Assembly (NCBI GenBank): GCA_017555595.1
Contig: JAFZGC010000125.1
Location: 1-34,694 of the forward strand
DNA: 34,694 bases
Source of the DNA: Paludibacteraceae bacterium
GTDB taxonomy: Bacteria; Bacteroidota; Bacteroidia; Bacteroidales; Paludibacteraceae
Direction: 5' to 3'
How positions within the stretch are numbered: position 1 is the stretch's first letter; each line of letters opens with the position of its first letter. Both the position numbers and the translations under genes were made by a program. The notes under the pieces were generated by a model. It saw only the letters and a list, made by a program, of their open reading frames with translations, was not told where the DNA came from and ran no database searches. Shown one piece after another: positions 3,938-34,520 of this stretch.

Positions 3938-6241
3938 TTACTTACATCCCGCTTCTGGGTCAAACCATTCAGGTATATCAAATTGCTCTTCTATACTATA
4001 GCCCAGCAAGGTGTCGGCATATACTTTCTGCATATATATAGACCATATGGGCAACGCCATGTTTGCACCTTGACCTGCGGACATATTATCAAAGTGAATA
4101 GAACGGTCTTCGCCACCGACCCATACACCACTAACCAACGACGGAGTAAAACCTACAAACCAGCCGTCAGAGTGGTTTTGTGAAGTACCAGTCTTGCCTC
4201 CCATTGGTGCTTTCAATCCGTAGCGGAAGCGTGCACGAACGCCAGTTCCATGATCCATCACGTTGCGCAGCATATAGATCATCTTATAGGAGGTTGTCTC
4301 GCTGATAATCTCGTAAGTCTTAGGAGTGAAACTAGCCAAGATATTACCATTGTTATCCTCAATGCGAGTAACGTACAGTGGTTCTACGCGGATACCTTTA
4401 TTGGGGAAGGTTGTATATGCATCCACCATCTCCTTGACGCTTACCTCGCATGGTCCAAGACAGAGACTGACTACGGGGTCTAATTGTCCTTCGATACCGA
4501 AAGAGCGCATCATACGTACTAACTGTTCTGGAGTAAAGAGCGACATCAAATAGGCTGTAATCCAGTTGCTGGATTTCTCTAATCCCCAATTGAGAGTTAC
4601 CATTTCGCCCTGATTGGAGTGGTGATCATCGCGTGGTGTCCATGCTACACCATTGCCGTCCACAAGTGTGATGGAGTCGTTAACAGTACTGTCGCATGGC
4701 CACATACCCTCGTCCATTGCCAAAGTAAAGAGATAAGGCTTGATAGTAGAACCCACCTGACGGCGACCTGATGTAACCATGTCGTATTGGAAGTGTGTGA
4801 AGTCTGGTCCGCCTACGTATGCTTTTACCGCGCCCGAGTGTGCTTCCATAGACATGAATCCGCAACGTAGGAAATGTTTGTTCCATCGGATAGAATCCAT
4901 AGGCGTCATGGTGGTGTCAATCAATCCGTTGTAGGAGAATACACGCATAGGTACTGGTGTTTTGAATACTTGTTTGATATCTGTTTCACTCATACCTTGC
5001 TTCTTCAGTGTACGGTAGCGGTCGGTTTGGCGCATTGAGCGATTCATAATACCGTCAATTTCTTCGGGAGTGAGGTCTTTAGAAAATGGTGCATACGATT
5101 TCTTACGCTTTTCGCGGAAGAAACTTTTTTGTAGGTCTTGGATATGCTCGCTTACTGCTTCTTCTGCATATTGTTGCATACGAGAATCTATGGTCGTGTA
5201 AACACGCAAACCATCTTGATAGAGATCGTATGGGGTACCATCAGGCTTGTGATTCTTATTACAGAAACCATAAAGTGGGTTCTCCTCCCATAGGCGTTTG
5301 TCAATTTCGTATTGAAGCATGTTCCAATCGGAATAGTTGCTCTTTTTGGGTTCTTTAGCGGTCAGTACTTGGCGTAAATACTCGCGGAAATAAGGTGCAA
5401 GACCTTGCTTATGATCTACTGGTTGGTATTTAAGTTCTATGGGGAGTGCTTTCAGAGAGTCGCATACCTCTTGGGTGATATAGTCGTATTTGCACATTTG
5501 GTCAAGCACGGTGTTGCGGCGGTTGAGTGCACGCTCTGGACGACGGCGAGGATTGTACATAGAGGGGTTCTTACACATTCCAACCAACATGGCCGCCTCC
5601 TCCATTTTGAGTTTCGATGGCGTGGTGCTAAAATACACTTGTGCAGCGGACTTTATACCTACTGCATTGTAGAGGAAGTCAAACTGATTGAGGTACATAG
5701 TTAGTATCTCCTCCTTGGAGTAGAAACGTTCTAACTTCGTTGCAATTACCCATTCGATAGGCTTTTGCAGGGCACGCTCGAAGATGCTATTGGCTTGTGG
5801 CGACCATAATTGCTTGGCTAATTGCTGCGTAATAGTACTTCCTCCACCTGCTTTTCCTAACATTACTACGGCGCGGAACAATGACTTTACATCCACGCCT
5901 GTATGATCGTAGAATCGCACGTCTTCAGTTGCAATAAGAGCATTGATCATATTGGGCGAAATGTCGGTATATTCTACACTCACGCGGTTTTCGTTGCGAT
6001 AGTAACGTCCGAGCAACTGCATGTCGCTGGAAATAACTTCAGTGGCGAATTTATTTTTAGGGTTTTGAAGCTCATCCAATGGTGGTAAGTAACCCAACCA
6101 ACCTTTGGTTATCATCCAGAACAATGCGATGACAGACAGAGTCCCAAGCGAAATAATGCTCCAGAACCAGACAATAAATTGTTTCTTAAATGGCGTTTTG
6201 TCTGTTTTCTTCAACCATTCTACAACGTTGTTATTATTCAT
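3938..6241 (-). CDS. mrcA: Penicillin-binding protein 1A, bifunctional transglycosylase/transpeptidase
   Basis: 767 residues, the normal size for class A PBPs. It polymerises lipid II into glycan strands and cross-links the stem peptides at the outer face of the inner membrane. One transmembrane helix lies at about 20-45. The GT51 domain follows, with IATEDVRFYDH (catalytic Glu near 105), GGSTITQQLAKQLW and a KLERFYSKEEILTMYLNQ helix. The transpeptidase domain has all three motifs: STIK (nucleophile Ser near 497), SSN (near 555) and KTGTS (near 680). It is first in a minus-strand unit with the TPR and TraB-like genes, driven by a promoter at 6281-6311 about 40 bases before the ATG. All key residues are present. 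The family is certain; the symbol follows common usage and could equally be pbpA or ponA. Confidence 0.95.
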   Translation of the reverse strand: MNNNNVVEWLKKTDKTPFKKQFIVWFWSIISLGTLSVIALFWMITKGWLGYLPPLDELQNPKNKFATEVISSDMQLLGRYYRNENRVSVEYTDISPNMINALIATEDVRFYDHTGVDVKSLFRAVVMLGKAGGGSTITQQLAKQLWSPQANSIFERALQKPIEWVIATKLERFYSKEEILTMYLNQFDFLYNAVGIKSAAQVYFSTTPSKLKMEEAAMLVGMCKNPSMYNPRRRPERALNRRNTVLDQMCKYDYITQEVCDSLKALPIELKYQPVDHKQGLAPYFREYLRQVLTAKEPKKSNYSDWNMLQYEIDKRLWEENPLYGFCNKNHKPDGTPYDLYQDGLRVYTTIDSRMQQYAEEAVSEHIQDLQKSFFREKRKKSYAPFSKDLTPEEIDGIMNRSMRQTDRYRTLKKQGMSETDIKQVFKTPVPMRVFSYNGLIDTTMTPMDSIRWNKHFLRCGFMSMEAHSGAVKAYVGGPDFTHFQYDMVTSGRRQVGSTIKPYLFTLAMDEGMWPCDSTVNDSITLVDGNGVAWTPRDDHHSNQGEMVTLNWGLEKSSNWITAYLMSLFTPEQLVRMMRSFGIEGQLDPVVSLCLGPCEVSVKEMVDAYTTFPNKGIRVEPLYVTRIEDNNGNILASFTPKTYEIISETTSYKMIYMLRNVMDHGTGVRARFRYGLKAPMGGKTGTSQNHSDGWFVGFTPSLVSGVWVGGEDRSIHFDNMSAGQGANMALPIWSIYMQKVYADTLLGYSIEEQFDIPEWFDPEAGCK

Positions 6242-6280
6242 AGTTTTTATTTTGATTGCACATTAACCCAAATTAACGTG

Positions 6281-6311
6281 CAAAGGTACAAAAAAAAAAG
6301 TACATGCGCAA
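6281..6311 (-). promoter_or_regulatory. Bacteroidota-type promoter for the PBP1A unit
   Basis: On the minus strand there is TTG (6309-6311), exactly 20 bases, then TACCTTTG (6281-6288). This is the -33/-7 pattern used by the primary sigma factor of this phylum. The spacer carries a ten-base homopolymer (A run on the plus strand). Confidence 0.8.
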
Positions 6312-6389
6312 GCGTATGCGCACTTTTTTGGAAAGCTGCTTCAATTTTAGGTTAAAAATGGTGTGTTGCTGATTAGATATATCTTTTCT

Positions 6390-6462
6390 CCCGCCTCCGC
6401 CGTTATCATTCCGTACCACTCCGCTATCATCTTTTACTTTCCTTGTACTTTGGCAATCATTT
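6390..6462 (+). repeat. Dispersed intergenic repeat, copy A
   Basis: 73 bases starting CCCGCCTCCGCCG and ending TTTGGCAATCATTT. They match 13006-13079 over their whole length with scattered mismatches and one single-base difference in length. The segment CATCTTTTACTTTCCTTGTA is identical in both. The copy lies in the gap between the divergent PBP1A and rubredoxin genes, 76 bases before the rubredoxin promoter. No open frame is shared. The rest of the 6312-6538 stretch shows nothing recognisable. Confidence 0.8.
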
Positions 6463-6538
6463 GAGGGTTGGGACAATGAAAAAATGAATGGATTTGATAG
6501 AATTTAATACGATTGTCCTGTATATTTTTGAGTTCTAC

Positions 6539-6569
6539 TTGCACATGTTAGAAAAAAATGCTACCTTTG
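6539..6569 (+). promoter_or_regulatory. Promoter for rubredoxin-mtaB
   Basis: TTG at 6539-6541, 20 bases, TACCTTTG at 6562-6569. It places the transcript start near 6575, about 65 bases before the rubredoxin ATG. Confidence 0.8.
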
Positions 6570-6640
6570 CAGCGAAATGGCACAATTATTGTACATATAC
6601 AAGTGACAATAATAACATTAACGATTAAATGTTGAAACAT

Positions 6641-6802
6641 ATGAAAAAGTATATTTGTGATGTGTGTGGTTGGGAGTATGACCCAGCAGTAGGTGTAGAA
6701 GAGGCAGGTATTGCTCCTGGAACAGCTTGGGAAGATCTGCCAACTGATTTTGTTTGCCCACTCTGTGGCGTAGGCAAAGATGAATTCTCGGCTGCGGAAT
6801 AA
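6641..6802 (+). CDS. Rubredoxin
   Basis: A 53-residue protein. It is a one-iron electron carrier in the cytoplasm. The two metal-binding pairs are CDVC (Cys6, Cys9) and CPLC (Cys39, Cys42), with the usual [15 protein letters not shown] start and a [14 protein letters not shown] segment. An in-frame ATG at 6629 would add MLKH; the start at 6641 is preferred because it gives the standard rubredoxin N-terminus. It is the first gene after the promoter at 6539-6569, and mtaB follows after 34 bases, so co-transcription is likely. Supplying electrons to MtaB or to an oxidative-stress reductase would be a guess. Family is certain. Confidence 0.95.
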
Positions 6803-23332: not shown

Positions 23333-26300
23333 TTATAATGTACGAATAGTATCGTTTACGGAATGTGTGTCTTGGTCGGGGATGGTATCAGACACAGTTG
23401 GTATATGTTTTTTAGGCAATTCCCAGTTGAAATCGTGTTTGAATATCAGACCCAAACCTTGAACGGTATTGGCTTGTTTCAGTGAATATTTATCTACTGT
23501 ATGTGTATAGGCTTTTGCACGAAGTTTACCGTTAGGAGTCAACAGATATTCAATGTCCAAGTCGCCAAAGAACGGACGGTTGCTCAAGTCGTTGTAGCGA
23601 TAACCAAAGTTACCATTGATAACCAACTGCCTAATAGGTTGTAATTGATAGTTAGCTTCATATTCTTGACTTGCACTGGCACCTTCACCATCGGTACGGA
23701 AATTGAAGCCCATCGTAAAGATATCTGTCAATTTACTTAACCAGGAGTTTATCTGTCCAGTAATAGTGGAGGAGAGTAGCGAATAGGTCTCATTGAGTCC
23801 CACTGTTTGTGTTGTTTGCAAATAGTCTGCTGTATAGAAACGGTTGAATACCAACAGGTAAATCACTTGGCGCATCAGCATCTCATCGGTGTTGATAATA
23901 GAATTTACTTGACTCTGTACCGACTCGTCAGATTGAGGCAATTCCACGGAAAAGCGTAAGTCTGGGTTAAAGAGTTGCTTGGTCATATACAGCACGCAGT
24001 TCACGGGAACAGATGAGCGGTTTGTAGCTGCTTGTGAAAACTCGCTACCAAATAGGTCGCGGAGCGAGGCGGTGGTGTGATAACGACCGATAATATCTAC
24101 GTTAGGAGACATTGGATCGCCACTCCATATCACGCGACTGCCATCGGCTATATCGAAATTGCGGCGGACGATATTACCTAATGCATACGAGAACATACCA
24201 GATTGTAGTGTGTAGGTACCCAACATCTGTATCTCCTCTGAGGAGTCGTCGTATGTCAGTTTGATATTACCTTCACCTCGACCACGAATACCGTCATCGC
24301 CGCCTAATTTAATGTTTATTTCAGCGGTTGGAGTTGCTTCTATTTGCAATGAAAGCAGTAATTTCGTGCGGTTGGGTAAGGTGGTCAGTTTCGTGGATTC
24401 TGGAGCGGAGAGCAAGTGCAAGAGGTTATTCGATGAAACGGGCTCTTTAAATTCAATAAAGGATGCATTAGAAGCTACTGAGGCTGTGTTTACGCTCAAA
24501 TAGAATTTAGAGTTGGCTTCAGTACGGGCATCTACACTAATCTTGCATTCGTAGTCATCGCCCTTGATATTCACTTTTCCTGTGCCATACACTTTTCCGT
24601 AGAATAGTGACTGTGGATCGTAGGGCAAGTCCATTGCCAGCATGTTATTTACATCGGCAGTCAGATCATAGTGGAAATTCAAGAAATTGGTGTGGGTAAT
24701 CATACCGCTGAATGAACCTTGATGACCATCTTTATCATAAAGGGTGACATGAGGGATTCGAATTGCGGTAGAGTCCATAAATATTGAATCGCTGAAATAG
24801 AATGTACTTCCTATTTGTGGAACAGTCAATTGAGCATCTTTGCCGTAGATAGCCGCTGTAACCCATGTCTGACGATCTTGACCAAACACTTGCAAATCAC
24901 CGTAACCGCGACCTTGTGGGTTGCTAAAGAAGTCGTGCGTCCAAAAGTCAATCAGACTGATATCTACGCTATCACAATGTATATCCAATCCCCACCATTT
25001 GGTAGCTGGAATCACTTTTCCCTGTACTTCTACTACTTTGTGTTGAGTCGAGTCTATGGCTTCACCATTGATGATGATGGTTTTCTCTTCGCGATTCAGA
25101 TAGGCTTGTGCGGTCAAGTTACCCAGATACGTACCATTCAATCCTGCATCTGTGATAGCCAGTTCTGCTTCCACCATAGGCTGGGTAAACAGGCCATATA
25201 AGGTTGCCCAACCTGTCAAAGGACCTTGCACAGAAATCGCTTCGCTGGCTAATGTGTACCCCAACAGGTATTGCAAGTCAATGTTTTGCAATTCCACGGT
25301 GATGGAGTCCTCCGCATGCGGAGAGGCGGTGCCGTGAGCTGCGATAGCTTGATAGTCGGTACTCAATGCGAAATGTTGGATATCTAAGGTGCGTTCTGCT
25401 GCGGTATAGGTGATATCTGCTTCGTTGATTGTCCAAGCAGAGTCATTGAGGATGATATTGGTTGGATGCAGGTGAATATCCAATAGGGGACTATTGGCAT
25501 ATTGCTTGATTTGAGAAGATACATGGATAGTACCCTCATTGCGAACACTATCTGTATTGTCTAAGTGGATTTTCATGTCCACCGAGTCTTGCCATGCATT
25601 CAGGTTTAGGCGCATTTTCATATCGCCAATCTTGGCTGCTGTAGGATTATCCTTAGGAAGGCGATTGTACATGTACAGCGCCACGTTCAAGTCGTTATCT
25701 TGGTTGTCAATAGAGAGTGTCAAGTCTTCTATCTGTGTACCAGATGTCTGTATTTTTGGTATGTGAGCTTGTAACCCCAATTGATGAATGTCTTCGTTCA
25801 CGAAACCCTTGATAGTCGGGTAGGAGGGGATAGACAAAGGCAACTCCAGTACCTTAGAGATCGATTCCAACTCTCGAAAATAGGCATAGAAACCTAAATT
25901 GTTAGGTTTTTCGTTTATCTTTTTAGGCTTGTCAAACAGCGAGGGTAGGTAAGTGTGTAGTATGTCTTGGAAGGTATTGGGCAGTGTGGTGTATTGAAAA
26001 TTGCCCGATATGTTCGCTGTTAGGTAATCCGATTTAAGGCGCATATGGTGTATAGGTGTACCCTCTTTCCATTCGCTGTCAATAGTCAGCTCCAGTTTTT
26101 CCATTAATGCCTGTTCTTCACCGTTGCGTATATCCAACGTATCAATAATCACATAACCGTTGAGATTATCCAACATCTGTTTTGGTGTGCCCGATGTAAA
26201 CATACTGACGTATGTCATAGCACTAATTGCCATCTCTGGATACTGTTCCGTCAAGTGGATTGTATGTGGACGTAGATCTGTGACGCGTGCTGTGAAATCC

Positions 26301-27562
26301 AAGCGCGTATCTTCTTCCGACCAGTCGGCTAAACCGTTGATTTGTAGTGTGATATTCTCGTCGTTGATGAGCAACTGACCATTCACTTCCTCTACACCCA
26401 TTTCTCCGTCAAAGTGAATATCTTGATAGGTATAACCACGATATTCGATATGCGAGATGTTGGCTTCAGCCTCACATCGTGTCAATTGTTTCTTATCGAT
26501 AGTACCATTCACATGTGCTTGCAGTGCAATTTCTCCTAAGTCTGGTTGACTCAATAGATTGCCCAACTGAAAACCATTAGTTGATAGATGTCCAACAAAC
26601 CCATAGTCCTGAAATGTGGAATCAACGGATACGTATCCGTTCACTTTGATTGCTCCCAATGCGGTGGTGAAGGCACCTTGCAGATTGAGATGCTCGATGC
26701 TTCCGTTGATTCCACCACGATAGTGAACGTGACCCAATTGGGCTACGGGTTGAGGAAGCACAATAGGGCGTGTCTGCAAATGTGACAAGAAATCTTGCAG
26801 CAGGGCATGATTGCAATATAGATTGTTGCAGTGCGCCTGCACGTACAAGGAGTCTAAGGTCGTGGGGTGATATACAGCCACATCGCCATCAAAGATGCGT
26901 TTGCCTCTGTAAACGAGTAACATTTGATCCGCAAAAATAGAGTCAAGGTCGCCATGTAGTGTTGCGCTGAAGCCAGCATCTAATTGATCGATTTGTGCGC
27001 GTAAACTCAAATTATGAAGATGTACATCCAGCGAGTCGCTGCTGAATACGGGCAACGCCATAGATAGTTGCAATGGGGCGATCAAGAGCTCATTATAGCG
27101 TATGCGCATATCCGACATGTCCAGTTGGTCGATGTTTAGTCGGAAAGGAAAGGTTTGTTTTTCGGGCTGCTGCTGATAGAGAAGGAAGTGACAATTGAGT
27201 GTGGAATCATTCAGCGAATGAATGTTGATGTAAGGCTGTCGCAGTTCTATGTGTGTTAAATCCAAACGGTCCTCCGCCAATTCAAGTAGGTTGATGGAGA
27301 TGTTGGCTTGTGCTACGAAGAGCAAGGTGTCGTGCTGTTGGTCGCTAATGTATAGACTATCAACGGCTAAGTGGTTCAGCGGGCGATAGTGAACGCGTTT
27401 GATTTCCACATCGGCTTGTAATGTCTGTGACAGCTCTTTGGTTATCTTTCCCACGATATAGGTCTGCACGTTGCTTTGTTGCAATAGCAACGATCCGCCA
27501 CCCAACAGGATAAGCAGCGAACCCAACACAATACCTATAATAATCAGCGCCTTTTTCATCAT
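23333..27562 (-). CDS. tamB: TamB/DUF490-family translocation and assembly protein
   Basis: 1409 residues. An N-terminal membrane anchor lies at about 4-27 (ALIIIGIVLGSLLILLGGG). It is followed by the AsmA-like start (LQADVEIKRVHYRPLNHLAVDSLYI). A very long run of beta-strand repeats follows, of the kind that builds a periplasm-spanning hydrophobic groove. The C-terminal 400 or so residues contain the TamB domain (for example GIRGRGEGNIKLTYD, GSRVIWSGDPMSPNVDIIGRY and LLVFNRF). The family supports lipid transport or outer-membrane protein assembly between the two membranes. In Bacteroidota it often sits beside a BamA-like TamL gene; none is next to it here. The start has two ATGs in tandem (27562 and 27559). 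The promoter is at 27580-27610. yifB/comM follows in the same direction. Confidence 0.92.
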   Translation of the reverse strand: MMKKALIIIGIVLGSLLILLGGGSLLLQQSNVQTYIVGKITKELSQTLQADVEIKRVHYRPLNHLAVDSLYISDQQHDTLLFVAQANISINLLELAEDRLDLTHIELRQPYINIHSLNDSTLNCHFLLYQQQPEKQTFPFRLNIDQLDMSDMRIRYNELLIAPLQLSMALPVFSSDSLDVHLHNLSLRAQIDQLDAGFSATLHGDLDSIFADQMLLVYRGKRIFDGDVAVYHPTTLDSLYVQAHCNNLYCNHALLQDFLSHLQTRPIVLPQPVAQLGHVHYRGGINGSIEHLNLQGAFTTALGAIKVNGYVSVDSTFQDYGFVGHLSTNGFQLGNLLSQPDLGEIALQAHVNGTIDKKQLTRCEAEANISHIEYRGYTYQDIHFDGEMGVEEVNGQLLINDENITLQINGLADWSEEDTRLDFTARVTDLRPHTIHLTEQYPEMAISAMTYVSMFTSGTPKQMLDNLNGYVIIDTLDIRNGEEQALMEKLELTIDSEWKEGTPIHHMRLKSDYLTANISGNFQYTTLPNTFQDILHTYLPSLFDKPKKINEKPNNLGFYAYFRELESISKVLELPLSIPSYPTIKGFVNEDIHQLGLQAHIPKIQTSGTQIEDLTLSIDNQDNDLNVALYMYNRLPKDNPTAAKIGDMKMRLNLNAWQDSVDMKIHLDNTDSVRNEGTIHVSSQIKQYANSPLLDIHLHPTNIILNDSAWTINEADITYTAAERTLDIQHFALSTDYQAIAAHGTASPHAEDSITVELQNIDLQYLLGYTLASEAISVQGPLTGWATLYGLFTQPMVEAELAITDAGLNGTYLGNLTAQAYLNREEKTIIINGEAIDSTQHKVVEVQGKVIPATKWWGLDIHCDSVDISLIDFWTHDFFSNPQGRGYGDLQVFGQDRQTWVTAAIYGKDAQLTVPQIGSTFYFSDSIFMDSTAIRIPHVTLYDKDGHQGSFSGMITHTNFLNFHYDLTADVNNMLAMDLPYDPQSLFYGKVYGTGKVNIKGDDYECKISVDARTEANSKFYLSVNTASVASNASFIEFKEPVSSNNLLHLLSAPESTKLTTLPNRTKLLLSLQIEATPTAEINIKLGGDDGIRGRGEGNIKLTYDDSSEEIQMLGTYTLQSGMFSYALGNIVRRNFDIADGSRVIWSGDPMSPNVDIIGRYHTTASLRDLFGSEFSQAATNRSSVPVNCVLYMTKQLFNPDLRFSVELPQSDESVQSQVNSIINTDEMLMRQVIYLLVFNRFYTADYLQTTQTVGLNETYSLLSSTITGQINSWLSKLTDIFTMGFNFRTDGEGASASQEYEANYQLQPIRQLVINGNFGYRYNDLSNRPFFGDLDIEYLLTPNGKLRAKAYTHTVDKYSLKQANTVQGLGLIFKHDFNWELPKKHIPTVSDTIPDQDTHSVNDTIRTL

Positions 27563-30919: not shown

Positions 30920-32833
30920 TTAATCTTCTTTTCTAATACAACGCACATATTTGTGAAAGTCCTTATCCTCGGACTCTAGATCACCATCGTAGAAACTCTG
31001 GAAATACGCGTAGTCTTCACTCTCAGCCGTACTACTCCAATACTCACTATTATGGTAACCAGTGGTGAAGCCCCCAATCTGACTTCTATGAATATACATT
31101 GTATTTAGCACATCTTTTGAAGGTAATACCCAATCCGAATAACCTCCGTAGGTTAAATTGTCACAAGCATTTATCGCTTGGTACCATGACATATGAGAAT
31201 CGAAAGCTGGATGCACCCGATAAGTATAAGCATTATGACGAAATGTAGGCAAAGCAATATAGGCTGTATAATCAGGATGCTCTAACTTAATCGTGGTACC
31301 ATACGAAATAGAAGCACTACTTTTGGCGTATGCACGCACATAGAAAATTCCTTGAGTTAATCCACTTATTGTTACTTGTTTTTCAAATTGCGCAGAAGAA
31401 GTTTTTGCTACTGTCACTTTTGTAACACTTGAATCGTCCAAAGTTGGATTTTGTATCTTAGCATAAATGAATCCGCGTTCCGTATATTCAGGATCGCCTG
31501 CATTGGTAATCTTTCCGATACAATAAGCACTTGTATTGCTTTTTATCTCCACCGATACTGTTGTAACCTGTGGCGAAATCGCCTTAAAATCAGCCACTTT
31601 CTCCTCGCCATACGCAGTACCTTGTGTATTGGTAGCGTATGCGCGAACATAGTAAACATTACCGACTTGCAGATTAGAAGCATTTGCAGAAAATTCACCT
31701 GTACCTTTGCCTGCTGCTACAATTTTTGTATCACTACCTACCATAGGGTTATGCGTAGTAGCATATACAAATCCGCGTTCTGTATAGTTAGGTTCGCCCG
31801 CATCCACAATCGTACCATGGAAAGTCGCACGTCCATTTGTACGAGAAATATCCGTTACGGTTTGTGTCGTCACTTGTGGCAAAGCGTCAGAAGGTGTAAA
31901 CGACACTTCATTCGTGCTATACGCCTCTTTACCTGCATTGATGGCGTAAGCACGAACATAGTAGGTTTTGCCTTTTGTCAATCCTGATACTGTAGCGGAA
32001 TAGGTTTTGCTATTGGTCAATGTGGAAGTTATTTTCTGAATACAACTACCTAAAGTAGGCATAGAGGATTCCGAATATACAAAACCGCGCTCGCTATACT
32101 TGGGGCTACCGTCTGTCAATATCTCGCCATTGAGGGTGGCAGTAGTTGTTTTTACATTGGTAGCCGCCAAAGTGTTGAGTGTGGCGAGAATAGGACCTGT
32201 CGCAGTTATTGTCAATTGTTTGCTACCGTTATTAGAGGTAATATGTGCAGTAGTCGTATTCTCTCCACTCTTGAGTTTAGTTCTATCAATCGTCACAATC
32301 AATGATTGAGTAGCACCAGCGGAAAGTACGCCTTCAATCTTACTGACAGATTTAATCCAATCCGCTGTAACGGTAATCTGCCACTCCAATGATTCTGTAC
32401 CATCATTGAACAAACTAAATGAACGCGCTACATCATCAATCGCACTACCAAAATCCAATGTGCTGATTTCTTGGCGATTGTCATCTACCACCTTCAACGC
32501 AGGAGGCAGTTTCTCTATCTGTACATCGCCTTTAGCTTGTTGTCCTGGCTTCACTTCGATGGTGCTACTTACGCCATCAAGATAACCAGTTTTGGTAATA
32601 ATCAAAGTGTATTTGCCAGGGTCTAATTCCGTAAACTCGAATTGACCTTCGCTGCCCGTCACGGTTTTTAGTCCGCTTGGACTCAATTCTACACCTGCCG
32701 ACTTAATTGGTTCACCAGTGGCTTTGTCCACCACCGTGCCATAAATACTGCCAGGCAATTCCTCTGGCGCACATGCTTGGTAAATGCCACAAACGAGTAG
32801 CAGACCAAGGAGAAGATAGAATGATTTTTTCAT
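30920..32833 (-). CDS. Modular lipoprotein: regulatory-like domain, BACON-like domain, three Fn3-like repeats, DUF1566-type C-terminus
   Basis: 637 residues. Lipobox YQAC near Cys21. Residues about 28-108 are a carboxypeptidase-regulatory-like beta-sandwich (YGTVVDKATGEPIKSAGVEL), closely similar to the next upstream protein. Residues about 110-212 look BACON-like (WIKSVSKIEGVLSAGATQSL). Three fibronectin-III-like repeats follow, each with a YSERGFVY or YTERGFVYA signature and a YYVRAYA strand. The last 105 residues resemble DUF1566/Fib_succ_major (YGGYSDWVLPSKDVL, EYWSSTAESEDY, YVRCIRKED), a fold of the C-type-lectin kind. It is probably a surface-exposed binding protein. It is last of a minus-strand run with the 32898 and 33270 genes, and a double hairpin follows it. 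Confidence 0.88.
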   Translation of the reverse strand: MKKSFYLLLGLLLVCGIYQACAPEELPGSIYGTVVDKATGEPIKSAGVELSPSGLKTVTGSEGQFEFTELDPGKYTLIITKTGYLDGVSSTIEVKPGQQAKGDVQIEKLPPALKVVDDNRQEISTLDFGSAIDDVARSFSLFNDGTESLEWQITVTADWIKSVSKIEGVLSAGATQSLIVTIDRTKLKSGENTTTAHITSNNGSKQLTITATGPILATLNTLAATNVKTTTATLNGEILTDGSPKYSERGFVYSESSMPTLGSCIQKITSTLTNSKTYSATVSGLTKGKTYYVRAYAINAGKEAYSTNEVSFTPSDALPQVTTQTVTDISRTNGRATFHGTIVDAGEPNYTERGFVYATTHNPMVGSDTKIVAAGKGTGEFSANASNLQVGNVYYVRAYATNTQGTAYGEEKVADFKAISPQVTTVSVEIKSNTSAYCIGKITNAGDPEYTERGFIYAKIQNPTLDDSSVTKVTVAKTSSAQFEKQVTISGLTQGIFYVRAYAKSSASISYGTTIKLEHPDYTAYIALPTFRHNAYTYRVHPAFDSHMSWYQAINACDNLTYGGYSDWVLPSKDVLNTMYIHRSQIGGFTTGYHNSEYWSSTAESEDYAYFQSFYDGDLESEDKDFHKYVRCIRKED

Positions 32834-32897: not shown

Positions 32898-33230
32898 TTA
32901 TTTTTTTATCTCCATCGTAATCGTTACATCCGTTGTCTCTCCTGCAATAGCATTTACCAACTTACGGTTAGTGCTATAGCCAGTTTTCATCACGGTAATC
33001 GTGTATTGCACAGCATCCACTTCTGCAAACTCGAAGCGTCCATCTGCACCCGTCACCATATTTTTACTTGAGGGGCTGAGTTGTACCGATACACCCTCTA
33101 TCGGTTCCATCGTTGTCGCATCTACCACCGTACCACTCACTGTAGCAAATACCTCGTATGTCACAGGTTCACAGCCTACTATTGTCAGCAATGCTAATAG
33201 CAATGCACAAAAAGTTATTCGTTTCATCAT
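32898..33230 (-). CDS. Small lipoprotein with a single carboxypeptidase-regulatory-like domain
   Basis: 110 residues. Signal sequence ending in lipobox TIVGC (near Cys20). The remainder is one beta-sandwich domain (GTVVDATTMEPIEGVSVQLS, MVTGADGRFEFAEVDA, YTITVMKTGY). It aligns closely with residues about 30-85 of the following lipoprotein, so the two arose by duplication. Two ATGs in tandem (33230, 33227) offer the start. The upstream gene ends 39 bases before it. It is probably an envelope lipoprotein; no further function is suggested. Confidence 0.85.
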   Translation of the reverse strand: MMKRITFCALLLALLTIVGCEPVTYEVFATVSGTVVDATTMEPIEGVSVQLSPSSKNMVTGADGRFEFAEVDAVQYTITVMKTGYSTNRKLVNAIAGETTDVTITMEIKK

Positions 33231-33269: not shown

Positions 33270-34076
33270 TTAGAAATTTACTACCGCTGCTACACCGCCA
33301 CTCTCATAATCTGCGTATGGCGTTAAACGCAACTCAGCTGTACCCAATGGTATTTGTGTCTTTCCTTTTGCCACCATACCATCTATCACATTCCATACAT
33401 ACACCGCTGCCACACAACCTATGCCCACATTGCGACTAATCTGACAGATATTCGCATTCTGCGCATAGCGTTGTTTTAATGTGCTGTTGTGTGTCATGCT
33501 TATCTGTTGTGCATAGTATCGTTGCAGACATTCAGCAGCCACTACGCCACCGACCAATACCACTTCGCTCACGATAAACGCAGTACCTTTGCCCACGCTG
33601 CCTTTCTTTATCTGCGCCAAGCCAGGCACAAACGAATGTCCAATATATTGGCTCTTGGCTAATTGGTTGCACTGGGTGAAAGGGGTAAAGTGGGCTGTTC
33701 TGTTGCCTGCTGCTGCCACTTGGCATAGCACATATACCACATACTGACTGCCCTCGCGTTGTACATATTCGCACACTTTATTCACGGGCACATTCATTGC
33801 CTCGGAAGTTTCACCATAGTTGCTGCCGTTGGATATAGCAGCATTGATACTGGCTAAATCTATCGCTAATGCCAAACGCTCAATGGTACTGCGATAAACC
33901 AATCCCATAGCGCGATTGCGTGCTTCCATCTCGGTTGTACCTACACCGCGTTCTACTACATACAGATAACTGTCGTTGGCTGGGCGTGGGGTTTGCAACA
34001 CCCATTGAGGCATCTCCTGCGCGCAGATTGCCATTTGCGCTGCTACTAAAAGCAGCAAAAATAATAGTTTCTTCAT
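33270..34076 (-). CDS. Secreted/membrane protein with LPP20-like N-terminal domain, paralogue of the 13207 gene
   Basis: 268 residues, signal peptide about 1-19 (AICAQ). Residues about 20-130 (PQWVLQTPRPANDSYLYVVE, RAMGLVYRSTIERL, VPVNKVCEYV, YVVYVLCQVAAAG) match the N-terminal domain of the 833-residue protein at 13207 in order and spacing. Residues about 140-268 differ: FVPGLAQIKKGSVGKGTAFI and two hydrophobic stretches resemble the small membrane domain (DUF5683-like) of other Bacteroidota proteins. No catalytic motif is visible. The only promoter of the standard type upstream is that of the candidate ncRNA (34464-34494), so expression may depend on read-through. Confidence 0.8.
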   Translation of the reverse strand: MKKLLFLLLLVAAQMAICAQEMPQWVLQTPRPANDSYLYVVERGVGTTEMEARNRAMGLVYRSTIERLALAIDLASINAAISNGSNYGETSEAMNVPVNKVCEYVQREGSQYVVYVLCQVAAAGNRTAHFTPFTQCNQLAKSQYIGHSFVPGLAQIKKGSVGKGTAFIVSEVVLVGGVVAAECLQRYYAQQISMTHNSTLKQRYAQNANICQISRNVGIGCVAAVYVWNVIDGMVAKGKTQIPLGTAELRLTPYADYESGGVAAVVNF

Positions 34077-34113: not shown

Positions 34114-34147
34114 AAAAAAAGCGCGGAACTTGCCTTTTGCCAGTTCC
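34114..34147 (-). terminator. Intrinsic terminator of the candidate ncRNA
   Basis: On the minus strand GGAACT ... AGTTCC with an inner GC pair set and an AAAA loop, followed by GCGC and seven T residues. It sits directly after the closing helix of the folded RNA. Confidence 0.75.
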
Positions 34148-34457
34148 ACGTTATGAGGCTGTCGCATTGCCTTGGAATTTAGAACCGACAACGCGAAGCC
34201 CACGCCGAATATAAAATATACTCTCGTGCTACAATAGTTAAGGTACGCGTGTGCGCATACGTATATACGCAAAAGACGTACCATAATAGGCACAAGAGGG
34301 ATAATCTTATATCCCGTAGGACATCTATCGTTGCTAAGTCCTGAAATTCCCTGAAACTTGCGACATTTCATAACGTCAGAACAGAGCGCAATAAACGCCT
34401 TTTAAATATGTCTGCAAAACCCTCCGCCGATGCGCAGACATCCCTTCGTTGGGTTTC
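34114..34457 (-). ncRNA. Candidate structured non-coding RNA of about 340 nt
   Basis: No protein gene is supported here, but the minus strand folds well. A 5' hairpin pairs 34434-34441 with 34408-34415 (eight pairs). Long-range helices join 34369-34376 to 34148-34155 (eight), 34359-34365 to 34160-34166 (seven) and 34344-34350 to 34174-34180 (seven). Inside lie a hairpin 34298-34303/34310-34315 and a two-part hairpin 34242-34247/34277-34282 with an inner eight-pair stem and tetraloop. A standard promoter precedes it and an intrinsic terminator follows, so it is probably a free-standing RNA. A long rod with internal loops recalls 6S-type RNAs or Rfam Bacteroidales motifs, but this was not tested. 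RNase P RNA and tmRNA signatures are absent. Confidence 0.6.
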
Positions 34458-34463
34458 GCGCTG

Positions 34464-34494
34464 CAAAGGTACAATATTTTTTTGAATTGCACAA
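34464..34494 (-). promoter_or_regulatory. Promoter for the candidate ncRNA
   Basis: On the minus strand TTG (34492-34494), 20 bases, TACCTTTG (34464-34471). The expected start is near 34457, just before the first hairpin. Confidence 0.75.
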
Positions 34495-34495
34495 A

Positions 34496-34520
34496 AAAAA
34501 TCGCCGAAAAAGCGATTTTT
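34496..34520. terminator. Bidirectional terminator-like hairpin
   Basis: AAAAATCGC, seven-base loop, GCGATTTTT: a perfect nine-base-pair stem flanked by A and T runs on both sides, directly upstream of the ncRNA promoter. It may insulate the RNA from transcription on the far side. Confidence 0.6.

Follow-up and report, generated by a model that had tools for sequence, protein, structure and literature searches.

Among the regulatory systems described so far, those closest to the RNA reported here are the riboswitches and attenuators that make use of an intrinsic terminator. These elements occupy the 5′ leader of a transcript that starts at its own promoter and continues into genes on the same strand, and they join a sensor-like 5′ domain to antiterminator and terminator pairings that are mutually exclusive. 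A second term of comparison is provided by the leaders that depend on UpxY, RfaH or LoaP, which operate antitermination ahead of capsule and surface operons; leaders of this kind need a NusG paralogue. In addition, 6S RNA and 6S-Flavo are long rod-like RNAs equipped with a promoter and a terminator, and DUF805b and DUF805 are candidate cis-regulatory RNAs. Promoters of Bacteroidota follow the consensus TTTG-N19-TAnnTTTG. Finally, a study on Flavobacterium psychrophilum describes 64 structured 5′ regions without a known class, together with independent RNAs having a median length of 176 nt (PMC9723704).

The window analysed here, that is, a whole stretch of 34,694 nucleotides from a Paludibacteraceae bacterium (contig JAFZGC010000125.1), carries on its minus strand a segment that we read, with a probability of about 0.78, as a 5′ leader acting as a transcription attenuator, in which initiation at a dedicated promoter is followed by a choice between a rod and a terminator (Table 1). 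It differs from the known riboswitches and attenuators in that no Rfam class fits it, in that up to 26 matches are found per genome, ahead of unlike genes, and in that the role of antiterminator would be played by a rod of ~290 nt. Judging from the letters, TTTG and TACCTTTG upstream of the RNA constitute a Bacteroidota-type promoter, and the 3′ end of the RNA consists of a hairpin, GUGGAAC...GUUCCGCGC, followed by seven T residues. The minus strand from 34458 to 34113 (346 nt) has a fold energy of -130.6 kcal/mol, as compared with a mean of -94.4 (sd 5.9) for its dinucleotide shuffles (z -6.15; 0 of 100 as low). An earlier note on this DNA had described a promoter, a structured RNA and a terminator with seven T in one orientation, and in this respect it was right. 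The window copy scores 343.6 bits against the model R1, to whose alignment it itself belongs. A second predicted intrinsic terminator (AAATCGC..GCGATTTTTTTT, 34493-34518, minus strand) ends directly 5′ of the promoter, reaching into the TTTG box; its role is probably to end a transcript that comes from upstream or to shield the leader.

Table 1. Features of the leader RNA and of its surroundings, in window coordinates; paired segments are given as 5′ strand with 3′ strand.
Feature	Position	Strand	Details
Promoter, predicted	34464..34495	minus	TTTG 34495-34492 and TAnnTTTG TACCTTTG 34471-34464, 20 nt between them
Whole leader RNA	34114..34461	minus	Length about 345 nt; predicted start near 34461 and end at 34114, read from the sequence; fold z, R1 score, R2 matches
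5′ H-type pseudoknot, potential	34408..34459	minus	Pairings of helix 1 and helix 2
Pseudoknot helix 1		minus	GCGAAACCC 34459-34451 with GGGTTTTGC 34422-34414
Pseudoknot helix 2		minus	ATGTCT 34441-34436 with AGACAT 34413-34408
Conserved small hairpin, rod base	34385..34399	minus	GGCGT-loop-GCGCT; helix 1 of A1 and A6
Long imperfect rod	34143..34382	minus	Helices 2-6 of A1; covariation in A6
Rod base helix		minus	GTTCTGAC 34382-34375 with GTGGAAC 34149-34143
Hypervariable helix next to rod base		minus	34374-34369 with 34155-34150
Strand Y	34315..34322	minus	GTCCTACG; rod partner of X, proposed antiterminator arm
Strand X	34198..34206	minus	GGCGTGGGC; shared switch strand, pairs with Y (rod) or Z (terminator)
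Intrinsic terminator	34114..34149	minus	W GTGGAAC 34149-34143; Z TTCCGCGC 34128-34121; seven T 34120-34114
First gene of the putatively controlled transcript	33270..34076	minus	ORF; 268-aa protein with a hydrophobic N-terminus

The structure of the RNA is documented by the comparison of its copies. The models R1, R2 and R3 were built from 40 cores, 21 divergent copies and 19 compact copies, respectively, and 40 further loci were fetched and aligned for structure work. In alignment A1 (40 copies, 66 pairs), 98.4% of the cells are paired against 89.6% after shuffling, and pairing drops to 36-49% when the partner strand is slid by 1-3 columns; cells changed on both sides number 220, as opposed to 59.5 in shuffled controls. 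Specifically, the small hairpin at the rod base is paired in 100% of the cells, with four of its five pairs invariant, and helices 2-6 in 93.6-100%. Alignment A6, which comprises 21 divergent copies, shows changes on both sides at 47 of 66 pairs against 26.3 in shuffles (0 of 500 as high); it was fitted to the R1 structure, and its slid controls drop to 38-46% paired. Here the small hairpin is again paired in 100% of the cells, one pair being changed on both sides. In the 19 compact copies aligned with MAFFT (A12), 95.1% of the cells are paired and double changes occupy 77 cells against 23.1 in shuffles. The hypervariable helix next to the rod base is paired in 39 or 40 of the 40 copies at each position of A1, by means of three to five pair types per position, and the length of the core ranges from 245 to 306 nt between copies. 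The covariation of the RNA structure is strong by shuffle controls in A1, A6 and A12; this was the check on homologues that the earlier note had proposed, and the long-range nested helices to which it referred are present.

The position of the copies with respect to genes is equally characteristic. Among 132 loci with a model match, 123 could be evaluated for the downstream gene, which shares the strand of the RNA in 119 and lies on the opposite strand in 4, whereas upstream genes divide into 70 on the same strand and 41 on the opposite one (n = 111); the Fisher p of 1.6e-11 for this difference is nominal, since the loci are partly paralogous or come from related genomes. A first set of loci has same-strand next genes in 41 of 41 cases, and in a phylum-wide set of 20 loci the same is true of 19 of 19 evaluable ones. 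Within this phylum set (L290-L309), 18 of 20 loci have a divergent upstream gene. The gap from the T-run to the next gene has a median of 70 nt and measures 30-120 nt in 86 of 119 copies; in 43 copies it is 60 nt or less, so that little space is left for a second promoter. In the window, the 38 nt between the T-run and the start codon of the next gene are insufficient for a second promoter of the same type. The promoter of the leader, on the other hand, recurs: 111 of 129 copies have TAnnTTTG in the 150 nt that precede them and, in a matched control limited to the 120 copies with sufficient upstream DNA, 102 have it as compared with 6 of 120 in a stretch farther upstream. The 119 of 123 same-strand next genes at a median gap of 70 nt, set against 70 of 111 upstream, thus identify the RNA as a 5′ leader. 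The label of a free-standing gene, given to it previously on the basis of the window, has to be abandoned in view of the same-strand gene that follows nearly every copy and of the 38-nt gap, and the concurrent suggestion of a leader for the downstream envelope genes is the one that the copies favour.

A further line of evidence comes from the strands that form the terminator. X is one conserved strand (GGCGUGGG) with two alternative partners, the rod strand Y and the 3′ arm of the terminator, Z (CCACGC). Across 76 copies, X pairs with Z in all 76 (z 8.1), the terminator 5′ arm W pairs with Z in 51 (z 7.5), and a run of Y-X pairs scoring at least 4 is found in 69 (z 4.7); in each of the three cases, 0 of 300 between-copy re-pairings were as high. 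The W arm is missing from the compact forms. Compensated variants are GCGUAGG / CUGCGC (L035, L087, L088) and GCGUGAG with CUCACGC or UUCACGC (L091, L184, L186, L195, L198, L203). In the compact copies (n = 19), X-Z is paired in 96.1% of the cells against 46.7-73.7% when slid, and double changes are confined to 2 cells, a count reached by 8 of 500 shuffles; being so few, they leave conservation and correct register as the evidence in these copies. As X is unable to pair with Y and Z together, both states are under selection, and the covariation of both X-Y and X-Z over 76 copies is the signature that distinguishes a transcription attenuator. In 116 of 133 copies, at least four T are preceded by a 3′ hairpin with an energy of -4 kcal/mol or lower, and 4 of 133 are devoid of any run of four T. 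When the two states are compared, the rod is predicted to be lower than the terminated state by 0.5-8.9 kcal/mol (mean 4.3) in all 40 copies, the energies being rough, with unequal constraints and cotranscriptional folding left out. The long helices and the terminator listed in the earlier note are both present, but the closing helix of the rod borrows the 5′ arm of the terminator, so that the two cannot both form fully. On these grounds, it is very likely that the RNA decides whether the polymerase stops or reads through into the gene, and we infer that termination is regulated.

A rather unlikely alternative is that the copies make up a family of trans-acting small RNAs, the terminated transcript of ~345 nt being the product and the downstream gene being reached by weak read-through. 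The promoter and terminator that each copy possesses and the very stable fold would agree with this, and copies could owe separate identities to the variable helix, each position of which admits three to five pair types. A lone small RNA, however, has no need to be followed at ~70 nt by a same-strand gene, as happens in 119 of 123 cases, and it needs only one of the alternative terminator-strand pairings that are conserved here; moreover, the variable segments pair internally.

With regard to known families, a search of the window against Rfam 15 at gathering score gave 0 matches on the RNA, a relaxed threshold gave only chance-like matches in the RNA region (best E 0.98), and ARAGORN found 0 tRNA or tmRNA genes in the window. 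In 20 order-level and own-genome loci, Rfam 15 recognised only DUF805/DUF805b, outside the RNA, and in 20 phylum loci one tRNA only, again outside the RNA. A 6S-type RNA or a known Rfam motif, both of which had been entertained from the sequence, are not what these searches point to. In particular, unlike 6S RNA and 6S-Flavo, the leader RNA is many-copy, is always a leader and has no Rfam match, and 6S RNA has about half its length. The putative attenuator class is cis-acting and is absent from Rfam 15 in all tests made. A survey of the open-access PMC literature found no paper describing this RNA, which does not imply its absence from print.

Of the Rfam matches outside the RNA, DUF805b occurs in the same transcripts as the leader. 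In the genome of the window, 6 of 6 DUF805b (RF02914) matches begin 15-48 nt past a leader, and in the genus sample a leader lies within 200 nt upstream in 16 of 29 DUF805b loci. DUF805b and DUF805 differ from the leader in being separate short elements near the start codon, downstream of it, and the window copy is without one; DUF805b often accompanies the leader proper, close to the start codon, and is distinct from it. DUF805 (RF03081) was considered as an obligate partner and rejected, a leader being upstream in 2 of 30 loci tested and no obvious leader being present in most of the 28 upstream regions inspected. In 6 of the 40 fetched loci (L042, L059, L065, L070, L072, L078), the stretch from the terminator to the start codon contains a further short element with the core GGGAGTTCCTA, preceded in several by AATCCGCATAG; possibly, this element is another companion hairpin of the DUF805b type.

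The genes behind the leaders serve diverse functions, an unusual situation for a metabolite riboswitch. In the window, the first of them encodes a protein for which 0 Pfam families were found, and the LPP20-like label given to this neighbour received no support from Pfam. Following it on the minus strand, 32898-33230 and 30920-32833 contain carboxypeptidase-regulatory-like (CarboxypepD_reg), Lcl_C and fn3 domains; farther on (23333-27562) there is a gene for a TamB protein, and these genes form an envelope cluster. Across the copies, a hydrophobic N-terminus was counted, by a crude hydropathy rule and with paralogues included, in 94 of 119 downstream proteins as compared with 11 of 68 upstream controls; the downstream proteins look exported. 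The 65 of 71 downstream cluster representatives compared with Pfam gave 41 families, of which 25 were listed. Among those listed, and each in one or two members, are glycosyltransferases, GtrA, Poly_export, polysaccharide pyruvyl transferase, T9SS tail, BspA LRR, sulfatase and OmpH, and a NusG domain occurs once. In the phylum set, for which Pfam covers 10 of 20 proteins, 6 of 10 are SusC-type receptors (Plug + CarbopepD_reg) and one is a sigma factor.

These targets, with their polysaccharide and surface operons, resemble those of NusG paralogues of the UpxY/RfaH/LoaP kind, and the RNA could be conceived as the loading site of such a dedicated antiterminator instead of a riboswitch. At locus L163, which belongs to a Prevotellaceae MAG, the gene directly behind the leader encodes a NusG domain, which would speak for this explanation; this gene (5964-6689, plus strand) carries a KOW motif, and its product is UpxY-like by context. 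Two points make the explanation unlikely: loading of an antiterminator does not require alternative secondary structures and, mildly against it, a count by domain gives one NusG-domain gene in the genome of the window, which is 89.5% complete.

The sequence of the window RNA recurs within its own genome, in which R2 gives 19 matches, the two weakest with E 1.2e-7 and 1.1e-5, and R1 gives 17, 4 of them being opposite-strand echoes of the rod. A DNA search of the genus found matches in 66 of 101 genomes, with long matches in fewer, and several near-identical copies. With R2, the RNA is detected in 40 of 41 genomes of the genus (own genome counted), with a maximum of 26 matches per genome, in 50 of 198 genomes and 43 of 151 genera of the order, and in 7 of 296 genomes of the phylum. 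R3, which represents the compact form of ~175 nt, detects it in 59 of 395 phylum genomes and 31 of 171 genera. Searches spanning 40 genomes were run with stricter filters, by which weak matches are lost, so that 15% of the 395 phylum genomes is a lower bound. The structured 5′ regions of F. psychrophilum (PMC9723704) are like the compact form by description only.

Most of the named records in which the core word occurs are MAGs of Paludibacteraceae and of further Bacteroidales obtained from herbivore guts, and others belong to Prevotellaceae, Bacteroidaceae, Limimorpha and Parabacteroides. The pattern scan with this word also matched non-Bacteroidota records; among these, the models recognised nothing in L100, L152 and L167 (L116, L131, L151 and L154 were left out). 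The RNA class is widespread in Bacteroidota. Up to 26 matches per genome, several copies being near-identical, might also be produced by a dispersed MITE-like repeat without a regulatory role, which carries promoter and terminator along as it spreads. Such a repeat is very unlikely in view of the fixed orientation ahead of genes, the deep conservation across the phylum, the compensatory change at 47 of 66 pairs, and the result that neither the window copy nor the core word has a match in phage, plasmid and viral collections. Least probable of all is a protein-coding segment or a leader-peptide attenuator: a 91-codon frame, in which the earlier note had correctly seen no protein character, crosses the RNA and an ATG occurs at AUGUCU in some 5′ domains, but the ATG of the frame, situated within a hypervariable helix, is retained by 5 of 40 copies, and both the changes of length between copies (core 245-306 nt) and the compensatory pattern are RNA-like.

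Ahead of the rod, the interval that separates it from the promoter contains in many copies four strands in the order 1-2-1′-2′, which in the window are GCGAAACCC, AUGUCU, GGGUUUUGC and AGACAU. Helix 1 varies among copies, and its own-partner score is 5.17 against 4.46 across copies (35 distinct copies; 0 of 500 re-pairings as high). Helix 2 is formable in 68 of 130 copies and is compensated or extended in some of them (L143, L088, L030, L084, L085, L036); when helix 2 was tested directly against shuffles in the full set of copies, the result was weaker, with runs of at least 7 in 10% against 6%, because many copies lack this helix. The 5′ domain of about half of the copies can form, by potential pairing, an H-type pseudoknot, which is mostly missing in the compact forms. 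A pseudoknot in this share of the copies is no more than suggestive of direct ligand binding. In loci L039-L078, the initial 50-90 nt are of several unrelated sequence types placed ahead of one common rod, and in L047 and L051 the 5′ domain has an additional ~40-80 nt; it looks as if this domain were exchangeable between copies. Copy number, 5′ pseudoknot and alternative terminator pairings lay beyond what the earlier reader could see, and the interpretation given at that stage is, on the whole, partly supported.

The course of events that we propose for the attenuator is the following. The polymerase would start at the TAnnTTTG promoter and produce first the pseudoknot and then the rod of ~290 nt. 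X (GGCGUGGGC), which comes late in the leader, would be bound to Y within the rod and would thereby be unavailable; the rod base would also sequester the local terminator arm GUGGAAC, and the gene for the surface protein would be reached by read-through (ON). With the rod left unclosed or opened, X and/or GUGGAAC would bind Z (CCACGC-U6) and transcription would stop after ~345 nt (OFF). We infer the assignment of the rod to the ON state from the strands that the terminator needs. A common signal, either a metabolite or an RNA-binding protein, may be read by the pseudoknot and the conserved loops and tip the balance between the two states; what is sensed might also be the behaviour of RNA polymerase. 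A single leader class would serve numerous scattered genes, the majority of which encode exported and surface proteins.

More tentative, and in our judgement somewhat doubtful, is the wider proposal of a phylum-wide sensory RNA of Bacteroidota, in which one signal, bound by pseudoknot and rod, would switch a whole surface programme through attenuation at tens of loci per genome. If this were true, SusC-type receptors and genes for capsule and glycan, T9SS and lipoproteins would be placed under one global regulator made of RNA leaders in place of a transcription factor. With 15% of 395 phylum genomes and up to 26 matches per genome, the class would rank among the more numerous regulatory RNAs of Bacteroidota, and DUF805b, an orphan Rfam element, gains a partner. 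Bacteroidota are major degraders of glycans in guts and soils, and the switching of their surface coats is an open problem; the leader class described here could link surface genes to one signal.
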